Origin: Dehalococcoidia bacterium
GTDB taxonomy: Bacteria > Chloroflexota > Dehalococcoidia > Bin125
Direction: 5' to 3'
NCBI GenBank assembly: GCA_022822375.1
Contig: JAJEBU010000052.1
Location: forward strand, 1-37,837
Length of the DNA stretch: 37,837 bases
Shown here: piece after piece, positions 34,821-37,837 of the stretch
Layout of the letters: each line of letters opens with the position of its first letter
How positions within the stretch are numbered: position 1 is the first letter of the stretch
Notes under the pieces: model-generated
What the model saw: the letters and a program-made list of their open reading frames with translations, nothing else
What the model was told of the DNA's origin: nothing
The model's database searches: none
Made by a program: the position numbers and the translations under genes

Positions 34821-35236
34821 TGGCGGACGAACTGCAGCCTCCTCTGCCCACGCCGATCGATCGGACGCAGCCATTCTGGGACGGTCTGCGCGAGGGCCGT
34901 GTGCGCATCCAATACTCGCCGTCGAGCGATCAGTGGGTCTTCTATCCACGCTCGCATGCGCCGTTGACGCTGGCCGACGACCTCGAGTGGCGCGACATCT
35001 CGGGCGAGGGAACGATTTACACGTACACGATCGCGCGTCGCCCAACGGCGCCCGACTTCGCTGGCCAAGAGCCGCAGATCATCGCCGTGGTCGAGCTCGA
35101 TGAGGGCCCGCGGCTGACGTCGACGCTGGTCAATGTCGATGAAGATCAGATCGCGGTCGGCATGCGCGTGCGACCCGTCTTTGACCACCTCGCGGACGCC
35201 GACACAACACTCCTGCGTTATGCGCCGGTCGATTAA
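34820..35236 (+). CDS. DUF35 OB-fold protein lacking zinc-ribbon cysteines
   Basis: A 138-residue protein of the DUF35 family, which usually joins a rubredoxin-like zinc ribbon to an OB fold and acts as partner of the thiolase encoded next to it. The helix FWDGLREGRVRIQYSPSSDQWVFYPRSHAPL aligns with the family's FWxGLxxGxLxxQxCxxCGxxxFPPRxxCP, but all four cysteine positions are other residues (Y-S-P-S-S, S-H-A-P). The OB fold follows (GTIYTYTIARRPTAP, PQIIAVVELDEGPRLTSTLVN, VGMRVRPVF). Its start overlaps the thiolase stop; its end overlaps the next gene's start by 17 nt. Acyl-CoA or protein partner binding is likely retained. Confidence 0.88.
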   Translation: MADELQPPLPTPIDRTQPFWDGLREGRVRIQYSPSSDQWVFYPRSHAPLTLADDLEWRDISGEGTIYTYTIARRPTAPDFAGQEPQIIAVVELDEGPRLTSTLVNVDEDQIAVGMRVRPVFDHLADADTTLLRYAPVD

Positions 35237-36587
35237 GGCAGTCCTCGCGGTACTGATCGTGTCGCTTGCCTTGGCCGCCTGTGGCGCCGGCGAGCCGTCA
35301 ACGGCTGAGCCAGGTACCGATGCTGAGCAGACGACTCAATCAACGCTGCAGACGGAACAGCAGGCCGCCCAGCCTGACGAGGCCGCCGAATCTGCACAAC
35401 AAGCCGCCGCAGAACCGTCGGACGACGCGGAGCCGGCCTCGAAGCCGGATACTGAGCAGCAGGAAGCGCTTCAGCCGCAGTCTGAGACGTCCGGGCAGGA
35501 GTCGCCTCCCGCCGACGGTGACGGCAACGTCGAACTCACATGGGCGCCAGCATTGAATGGTGTCGTTTTCGAGCAGCCCACTGAGATGGCGGTGCTCGCC
35601 GATGGATCGGTGCTGATCGCCGAGCAGCGCGGATCGATCAGCCGATTCCGGATCTCCGGCGACGAGACGCAGCAGTTTGGCGTTCTCGATCTGACCGATC
35701 AGGTGACGTTCAGCGGGGAGCGCGGGTTGCTCAGTGTCGCGCTGCATCCCGACCTGGATGCGCAGCCGTTCATCTTCGTCTACTACTCGCCGTCCGACGC
35801 CGCGCTGACGCGTCTGTCGCGCTTCCGCCTCACCGCTGACCATGCTGCTGCCGATCCAGGCTCGGAGCTGGTGATGCTCGAGATTCCCCAGCCGTACGCC
35901 AATCACAACGGCGGCGCGGTCCGATTTGGACCCGACGGGATGCTGTATCTCGGCATCGGCGACGGCGGCGCGGCAAACGATCCGCAGGGTCACGGACAGA
36001 ACCGCGAGACGCTGCTGGGCACGATCATTCGCATCGACGTCAGCCGCAGCAGCGCGTCGGAGCCCTATCGGATCCCGACCGACAACCCATTCCTCGGCGT
36101 GAGCGGCGTGCGGCCGGAGATCTGGGCGTATGGCCTGAGAAACCCCTGGCGGATGGCGTTCGACTCGGTGACCGGCGACCTGTACGTCGCTGACGTCGGG
36201 CAGGACCGCTGGGAAGAGGTCGCCGTCGTCCGCGCCGGTGAGAATCACGGTTGGAACGTCTACGAGGGGAACGAGTGCTTCCGCTCGCAGGACGCCTGCG
36301 ACCAACTGACGGATCACACGCGGCCGATCGCCGTGATCCCGCATCCCGATGGTTGCTCGATTACGGGCGGCATGGTCTATCGGGGCACGGAGATTCCCGA
36401 GTTGGTGGGACACTACGTCTTCGCCGACTACTGCTCGTTCCGTCTCTGGACGATCGATCCAGCCGGGCAGTTGACAGAGCGCATACCGGTCGACGTGTCG
36501 ATCATTGCCTTCGCCACAGATCAGGCGGGCGAAATCTACGCGCTGACGCCGCGCGGGCCGATCTTGCAGCTGATCGCCGCACGCTAG
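35220..36587 (+). CDS. PQQ-dependent sugar dehydrogenase lipoprotein (GSDH/sorbosone family)
   Basis: A 455-residue extracytoplasmic lipoprotein: signal MRRSIKAVLAVLIVSLALAAC with lipobox LAAC (Cys21), a Gln/Glu/Ala/Pro-rich linker to about residue 100, then a six-bladed propeller of the glucose/sorbosone dehydrogenase family (oxidises aldoses or related alcohols with PQQ). Family segments: PTEMAVLADGSVLIAEQRG, ERGLLSVALHPDLDAQPFIFVYYS, NHNGGAVRFGPDGMLYLGIGDGG, GLRNPWRMAFDSVTGDLYVADVGQDRWEEV, HGWNVYEGNECF, and SITGGMVYRG...GHYVFADYCSFRLW. The likely calcium/PQQ ligands (His, Arg, Asn in these loops) are intact. The ATG at 35220 places the lipobox correctly. The selenoprotein candidate follows after 38 nt. 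Confidence 0.9.
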   Translation: MRRSIKAVLAVLIVSLALAACGAGEPSTAEPGTDAEQTTQSTLQTEQQAAQPDEAAESAQQAAAEPSDDAEPASKPDTEQQEALQPQSETSGQESPPADGDGNVELTWAPALNGVVFEQPTEMAVLADGSVLIAEQRGSISRFRISGDETQQFGVLDLTDQVTFSGERGLLSVALHPDLDAQPFIFVYYSPSDAALTRLSRFRLTADHAAADPGSELVMLEIPQPYANHNGGAVRFGPDGMLYLGIGDGGAANDPQGHGQNRETLLGTIIRIDVSRSSASEPYRIPTDNPFLGVSGVRPEIWAYGLRNPWRMAFDSVTGDLYVADVGQDRWEEVAVVRAGENHGWNVYEGNECFRSQDACDQLTDHTRPIAVIPHPDGCSITGGMVYRGTEIPELVGHYVFADYCSFRLWTIDPAGQLTERIPVDVSIIAFATDQAGEIYALTPRGPILQLIAAR

Positions 36588-36625
36588 CCTGTGGACAAGA
36601 TGCAGCGGACAGGCAGGAGCCGCCG

Positions 36626-37837
36626 ATGACGACCTCACGCGCCTTTGGCCAGACGCCAGCGCCCGACGTGCCGGCTGGCATGACCTGGCTCAATGCGGGC
36701 CGCGAACTGTCGCTCGACGACTTCCGCGGCCGACTGCTGATCCTCCACTTCTGGACCTACGCTTGAATCAACTGTCTGCATGTCCTTCCGCAGTTGCGGA
36801 AGCTCGAACGACGCTACGCCGACACCCTGCAAGTGGTCTCGGTTCACTCTCCGAAGTTCCCGACGGAGCGCGAGACTGAGAATCTGCGGCAAGCGATCCT
36901 GCGCTTGCGGATTGAGCACCCCGTGCTCAATGACGCCGATTTCAAGTACTGGCAGACGTTCGGCGCGCGGGCCTGGCCGACGCTGTACTTCATCGACCCG
37001 CGCGGCAACGTGATCGGCATCCACGAGGGCGAACTGACGGAAGAGCAGGCCGCGCCGCTGATCGACGGATGGCTCGCCGAGTACGACGCGGAACAGGTGC
37101 TGACCCGCCGCGACCTCGGACTGGAACGGGAAACCGGGCGCGACAGCGCGCTCTCGTTCCCCGGTAAGGTCGCCTGGGACGACGCGTCGGGCCGATTGGT
37201 GATCTCCGACAGCAACAATGACCGCATCATCGTGTCCGACATCAATGGCAACGTGTCGCGGGTGATCGGCGGCTCGCAGGCCGGCTTCACGGACGGCTCG
37301 GCTGAGGCGGCGACGTTCAACCAACCGCAGGGCGTGACCATCCATGGTGACCACGTCTTCGTCGCCGACAACGAGAACCACGCGGTGCGCAGGATCGATC
37401 TGTCCGACGGCAGCGTCACGACGATCGCCGGGAACGGTCAACAGGCTCGAATGATGCCTCAAGGCGAGCCGGCGAGACAGACGGCGCTCAGCTCGCCGTG
37501 GGATGTCGCGGTGCACGACGGAGACTTGTACATCGCGATGGCTGGCATCCACCAAATCTGGCGGCTGCCATTGGGCGACCACGCCGGCGACGGCTCTTAC
37601 GTCGGACCGTGGGGCGGCTCAGGACGCGAGGGCATCGTCGACGGCCCGCGCATGCAGGCCGAGTTGGCGCAAGTCTCAGGACTCGCGCCCGGTCCGAGCG
37701 GACTCGCCTTCGCCGACTCCGAATCGTCGGGCGTCCGCGAGGTCAGCTGGGACCCGAACGGCGCAGTGCGCACGTTCATCGGCAAGACTGGCAATGGCGG
37801 TCTCTTCCACTTCGGCGACGAGGACGGCGGCCGCAGC
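36626..37837 (+). CDS. Thioredoxin-like/NHL-repeat selenoprotein candidate (in-frame TGA = Sec47; 3' truncated)
   Basis: 404 codons to the window end, interrupted once, at codon 47 (TGA 36764-36766). Residues ~25-150 form a thioredoxin-fold domain of the NHLRC2 type (LSLDDFRGRLLILHFWTYA-U-INCLHVLPQLRKLERRY, later ARAWPTLYFIDPRG with the cis-proline). Family members read FWTY-C-C-I-N-C; here TGA replaces the first Cys of CxxC, giving U47-I-N-C50. From ~175 on are NHL repeats (VISDSNNDRI, VADNENHAVRRIDLSDG). Downstream of the TGA all 357 codons stay open and family-like, and a hairpin fitting a bacterial SECIS follows 25 nt later. Start ATG 36626 has AGGAG 6 nt upstream. Predicted cytoplasmic redox enzyme; substrate unknown. 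Alternative: point mutation or base error. Confidence 0.8.
36785..36802 (+). promoter_or_regulatory. Candidate bacterial SECIS hairpin
   Basis: CTTCCGC (36785-36791) pairs perfectly with GCGGAAG (36796-36802) around a 4-nt AGTT loop. The loop starts 25 nt after the TGA. Bacterial SECIS elements are described as stem-loops with the apical loop about 16-37 nt downstream of UGA and a G among the first two loop bases; both hold. The coding sequence here (LPQLRK) uses CTT and TTG leucine codons, uncommon in this GC-rich DNA. Confidence 0.65.

Follow-up and report, generated by a model that had tools for sequence, protein, structure and literature searches.

We analyzed a 37,837-nucleotide stretch of DNA, hereafter the window, from the draft genome of a Dehalococcoidia bacterium (2.72 Mb, 95.6% complete). 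The frame opened by ATG 36626 meets a sole in-frame stop, TGA 36764-36766 (codon 47), and its other 357 codons are open to the contig end, as the sequence-only reading had claimed; 357 open codons were reached in 22 of 20,000 draws from a dinucleotide model of the window. Because contig C29 stops at the window end, the gene is cut, with 404 of about 502 codons present; copies in the same genus have a length of 502 codons. The gene specifies a thioredoxin-like (Trx-like) domain and an NHL propeller, and is referred to below as Trx-NHL. Its features are collected in Table 1.

Table 1. Features of the Trx-NHL locus in the window, with the evidence for each
Feature	Coordinates	Strand	Evidence
Likely ribosome-binding site, AGGAG, 6 nt before the ATG	36615..36619	+	Sequence; inferred
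Sec-containing Trx-NHL CDS, ATG to contig end	36626..37837	+	Open frame; homology; full-length relative of 502 aa
Trx-like domain, residues 35-129, Thioredoxin_8	36728..37012	+	Pfam match; model pLDDT 94.7
TGA, predicted selenocysteine codon 47, first position of UxxC	36764..36766	+	Aligns with Cys of SOQ1 FWTYCCINC
TGT, Cys50, second residue of UxxC, predicted resolving Cys	36773..36775	+	Invariant in alignment
Predicted bSECIS: arm CTTCCGC 36785-36791, apical loop AGTT 36792-36795, arm GCGGAAG 36796-36802	36785..36802	+	Folds; RNAalifold; covariation; absence from Cys forms; synonymous constraint
Pro118 of AWPT, counterpart of the conserved cis-Pro by the active site	36977..36979	+	P118 invariant; cis-Pro163 of NHLRC2 (PMC6107167); inferred by alignment
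NHL beta-propeller, first part; remainder past contig end	37151..37837	+	Pfam; structure searches; model

Just upstream of the Trx-NHL gene, on the same strand and across a 38-nt gap, lies a gene for a glucose/sorbosone dehydrogenase (GSDH) propeller (35133-36587); a GSDH gene is placed upstream in the window's genus and recurs in relatives of the window genome (L149, L171, L174, L181, and L215). At L105, L111, L114, and L143, a DsbH/DUF255 thioredoxin-like gene (PF03190) is found within about 130 nt downstream, and other Trx-NHL loci have an unassigned gene upstream. None of these neighbors is general, and gene neighborhood was set aside as too weak a clue to function.

Pfam matches in the window protein are Thioredoxin_8, AhpC-TSA, and NHL, and the segments on both sides of the TGA make up one Trx-like domain, with the NHL propeller following. 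Searched against solved structures, the whole reading matches Arabidopsis SOQ1 (7djj; E = 1.3e-89) and human NHLRC2 (6gc1; E = 5.2e-85). The earlier claim that the same thioredoxin and NHL domains continue past the TGA therefore held, given the Pfam matches and homology to SOQ1 and NHLRC2 throughout. So did the placing of the TGA on the first Cys of the C-x-x-C of an NHLRC2-like family, as SOQ1 FWTYCCINC aligns with FWTYA-U-INC of the window. The CC(I/V)NC motif of NHLRC2 and SOQ1 is itself absent from the window protein, which has A-U-I-N-C instead; most other TGA forms read C-U-I-N-C or G-U-I-N-C. As A-U-I-N-C is a Sec variant of CC(I/V)NC, the window protein is a homologous variant, not a strict NHLRC2/SOQ1-like member. 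Scores for the Redoxin profile (PF08534) fall near its cut-off of 26.6, at 27.4 bits for the window protein and 22.9 for a full-length relative.

An AlphaFold2 model of a full-length relative (L171), in which U47 was modeled as Cys, has a pLDDT of 94.7 and a pTM of 0.93. Its best match in the PDB is NHLRC2 (TM 0.91), followed by SOQ1 (TM 0.92), and domain matches, model, and structure search all give a Trx-like domain and, after it, a six-bladed NHL propeller. U47 directly precedes helix 48-63 in the model, like the corresponding residue of thioredoxins, and no variation is seen among 24 diverse sequences at C50, at W117-P118, and at many positions of the propeller. In NHLRC2, the motif is situated in the cleft between both domains, beside the cis-proline (PMC6107167).

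Three sets of relatives frame the comparison. Human NHLRC2, at about 40% identity, shares the Trx-like domain, the six-bladed propeller, and, in the cleft, a CxxC where alpha-1 begins, but has CCINC, with Cys for Sec, and an extra C-terminal beta domain. The lumenal part of SOQ1 (7djj, 7djk; E 1e-89) has the same two domains, whereas SOQ1 is a Cys form in which they are fused to HAD, transmembrane segments, and a C-terminal domain, and it acts in photoprotective qH. Cys Trx-NHL homologues of the same class (e.g., L077-L102) have the same architecture and about 42-48% identity to the window protein but differ in having TGC at the site and no SECIS-like hairpin.

The TGA is not peculiar to the window. 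Of 20 genomes of the GTDB family, one (G016) lacks the gene; all those that have it show a single in-frame TGA wherever the match extends over the site. In a class sample of 393 genomes, the gene was found in 93, 44 with the TGA and 49 without a stop, and in a phylum sample (Chloroflexota; 400 genomes, gene called at E below 1e-60) it was found in 78, 57 with the TGA and 21 without. Cys forms whose site was inspected have TGC there. Both close and distant relatives keep the TGA at the same codon with the downstream frame intact, which is what the proposed check on homologues had looked for, and a local sequencing error is excluded by its recurrence across many independent assemblies.

When 84,980 species genomes were scanned with the pattern FWTxx-U-(I/V/M)NC, at least 119 loci were returned, of which at least 104 have a further match to the NHL segment of the window protein. 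By record title, TGA-form Trx-NHL loci come from Chloroflexota including Thermomicrobia, Methylomirabilota and Rokubacteria, Gemmatimonadota, Actinomycetota, Acidobacteriota, Planctomycetota, Armatimonadota, Bacillota, and Pseudomonadota, about nine phyla overall. The carriers are mostly metagenome-assembled genomes (MAGs), and single phylum labels may be wrong; at least one carrier, Thermomicrobium sp. CFH 73360 (L200), is not labeled as such. This wide spread, like the identification of NHLRC2 and SOQ1 as the closest solved relatives, goes beyond the sequence-only reading.

Some TGA forms depart from the main type. L112, L119, L126, L152, L163, and L172, from other phyla, have long extra segments or diverged motifs (e.g., C-U-INCHHNV), and their hairpins are unlike the main type. 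L108, L117, L160, and L186, hosted by Methylomirabilis, Caldilineae, and a Deltaproteobacterium, are short genes that share the UINC motif but have the Trx part alone, with about 108 residues following U and no propeller. The short genes form a separate Sec subfamily, perhaps the 'Redoxin family' selenoprotein already listed in the literature.

Coding constraint continues past the TGA. Across the genus and its nearest neighbor, dN/dS has a median of 0.084 past the TGA and 0.112 before it, which indicates translation of the downstream segment and purifying selection on it.

The predicted bSECIS follows the UGA codon after an 18-nt spacer, and its 7-bp stem is capped by an AGUU loop at a distance of 25 nt from the UGA. 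Published limits for bacterial SECIS elements (PMC13188914) cover a UGA-loop distance of 25 nt, a stem of 7 bp, and a loop of 4, and the loop, with G second and then U, conforms to the bSECIS model (PMC13188914). Taken alone, the window hairpin folds no better than shuffled sequences (z about -1), and an Rfam search of the window gave no match. A search of the host genome for the same hairpin matched exactly only at the Trx-NHL gene; L223 and L224, which match nearly, are inside other genes and have no in-frame TGA before them. As the hairpin by itself is unremarkable, the case for a SECIS element rests on comparison.

Compared across sequences, it stands out. RNAalifold on 59 sequences selects exactly the 36785-36802 hairpin; in this alignment, 97.6% of cells are paired, 34 cells are changed on both sides, and compensatory changes occur at four of the seven pairs. 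The covariation score exceeds those of all 500 shuffles and all six slid controls. The 59 sequences were picked from the scan, and most with divergent hairpins were left out. A complete stem is present in 98 of 130 distinct TGA forms versus none of 26 Cys forms, while 15 of the 130 keep fewer than five of the seven pairs and might use hairpins of a different shape. Codon usage points to the same element: when the conserved columns of each amino acid are compared within TGA forms, codon entropy is lowest at Pro +8, Gln +9, Leu +10, and Arg +11, respectively; for Leu, the values are 0.46 bits at +10 and 1.55 at the next-lowest column. As the scan pattern fixed codons only up to +5, the low synonymous entropy at +8 to +11 was not made by the pattern.

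The host genome has the means to insert selenocysteine. A tRNA-Sec was identified (RF01852, 66.4 bits; ARAGORN anticodon tca), as were selA (516 bits), selB (323 bits), and selD (350 bits), so that all four genes named for checking in the sequence-only reading (selA, selB, selC, and selD) are present. TGA also serves as an ordinary stop, ending 9 of 20 long ORFs here, and global UGA recoding was rejected on this ground. The host SelD (L018; genome G000, contig C110:7468-8409) has an in-frame TGA of its own, in GG-U-GSKF, with a hairpin downstream. Hence a second gene of the genome appears to use Sec, and SelD is likely a selenoprotein as well.

Possession of the TGA form tracks selA. Among tested genomes of the class, selA is present in 35 of 35 with the TGA form versus 32 of 44 with the Cys form (one-sided Fisher p = 4e-4); one of the 35 calls rests on a sub-threshold, partial match at a contig, and kinship among genomes inflates the significance. 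In other lineages, 45 of 49 TGA-form genomes have selA. A tree of 105 sequences, built with the active-site columns left out, requires five Sec/Cys changes, at least three of which are forced by well-supported branches. L054 (genome G167) is a Cys form inside a largely TGA clade; its hairpin is broken, selA was not found in G167, and reversion from Sec to Cys is its likely history. For the other changes, the sampling (Cys forms from a single class only, TGA forms partly by pattern) does not reveal the direction.

By computation, then, a conserved TGA, a SECIS-like hairpin, the Sec machinery, and the fold of the product are all shown. That the window gene encodes a selenoprotein, with UGA 36764 read as Sec, has very strong support, all of it computational, as there are no protein or 75Se data; the earlier suggestion of a probable selenoprotein is thus supported, without experimental proof of Sec translation. 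Two alternatives concern how the codon is read. The TGA could be a real stop, in a pseudogene, through an assembly error, or between two cistrons (a 46-residue peptide and a reinitiated downstream protein). In its favor, TGA is a normal stop in the host, and a TTG-started ORF of 348 aa follows it. Against it, the TGA is kept at one codon in independent assemblies across phyla and its presence tracks selA, dN/dS downstream is 0.08, the Trx fold needs a strand before the TGA and a helix after it, and the codon constraint and covarying hairpin are not accounted for. We consider a real stop very unlikely; pseudogene and assembly error in particular were rejected on conservation, dN/dS, and SECIS constraint. 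Equally improbable, in our view, is readthrough in which Trp or Cys is inserted by a near-cognate or suppressor tRNA. The open frame by itself demands nothing beyond readthrough, but UGA alone is used, it stands at a Cys position, and both a SelB-type hairpin and the full Sec machinery accompany it; moreover, the Cys form L054 within the TGA clade has lost its hairpin, in a genome where no selA was found.

Under the selenoprotein reading, UGA 36764 would be decoded as selenocysteine by the host SelA/SelB/SelC/SelD, guided by the stem-loop at 36785-36802. The product would be a cytoplasmic-looking Trx-like domain with a six-bladed NHL propeller, as in NHLRC2 and lumenal SOQ1, and its active site, a Sec-x-x-Cys couple, would lie in the propeller-facing cleft where helix alpha-1 begins. 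We infer that the selenolate may attack a disulfide or other oxidized group on a cleft-bound partner (the substrate is unknown) and that Cys50 may resolve the mixed bond. This redox mechanism is inferred, the chemistry of the protein being untested, and we favor it only by a modest margin. A thiol-disulfide role is not established for the NHLRC2-type family, as human NHLRC2 showed no activity in an insulin reduction assay (PMC6107167). A third, less likely alternative rivals the mechanism but not Sec insertion: the Trx-like domain of the selenoprotein may not be an oxidoreductase, in which case Sec would bind a metal or ligand, or take part in a one-selenol reaction, and the propeller would be a scaffold. 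The NHLRC2 result favors it, as does a SOQ1-dependent change in its target that is not reversed by DTT. Weighing against it, the UxxC, the invariant second Cys, and Pro118 as the cis-Pro counterpart form the standard Trx layout, and SOQ1, whose redox activity had been debated, was later reported to supply reducing power to its target (PMC6107167, PMC10173003).

The sequence-only reading had also suspected that Trx-NHL proteins are not among the commonly listed bacterial selenoprotein families. This held for the 119 prokaryotic selenoprotein families and subfamilies tabulated in a 2026 review (PMC13188914), which include no NHL or propeller family, and for 18,950 NCBIfam models, none of which scored above cut-off for the window protein or full-length L171, with one ambiguous entry in the review table. 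That entry, 'Redoxin family protein' (UxxC, PF08534; Table 1 of PMC13188914), with HEU0032618.1 or MBA3499694.1 as its representative, shares a UxxC in a Trx-like domain but is given without mention of a propeller, and an earlier table gives it no conserved domain. The selenoprotein thioredoxin and the Prx-like thiol:disulfide oxidoreductase likewise have Sec first in UxxC and a Trx fold, but they belong to the PF00085 and PF00578 families and lack an NHL propeller. No Trx-NHL selenoprotein was found in the main text of the GOS, Sargasso, ISME J 2016, deep-Sep, and Asgard papers, supplements being outside the scope, and the literature searched, which did not cover subscription papers or a 2026 groundwater survey, held no report of a selenoprotein with NHL, NHLRC2, or a propeller. 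A 2018 survey of NHLRC2 (PMC6107167) noted prokaryotic CC(I/V)NC homologues, some in Chloroflexi, without mentioning selenocysteine. It is likely, therefore, that the Sec form of Trx-NHL is an unlisted selenoprotein family, the loosely described Redoxin entry not being excluded.

The finding adds a widespread family to the selenoproteome, one whose gene a standard annotator would truncate at the UGA. In most selenoprotein families, Sec occupies a catalytic redox residue. That Sec is kept at exactly this Cys across many lineages is independent evidence of redox chemistry at this residue, and it names the residue to test. NHLRC2 is essential in mammals, mouse included (PMC6107167), and is mutated in FINCA disease, yet has no known function. 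A bolder reading, for which we judge the evidence evenly balanced, is that Trx-NHL is an unlisted, multi-phylum Sec family of NHLRC2/SOQ1 proteins, with Sec the widespread state in parts of Chloroflexota. If this is true, the whole family, including essential human NHLRC2, would carry out redox catalysis at the motif on a partner held by the propeller.
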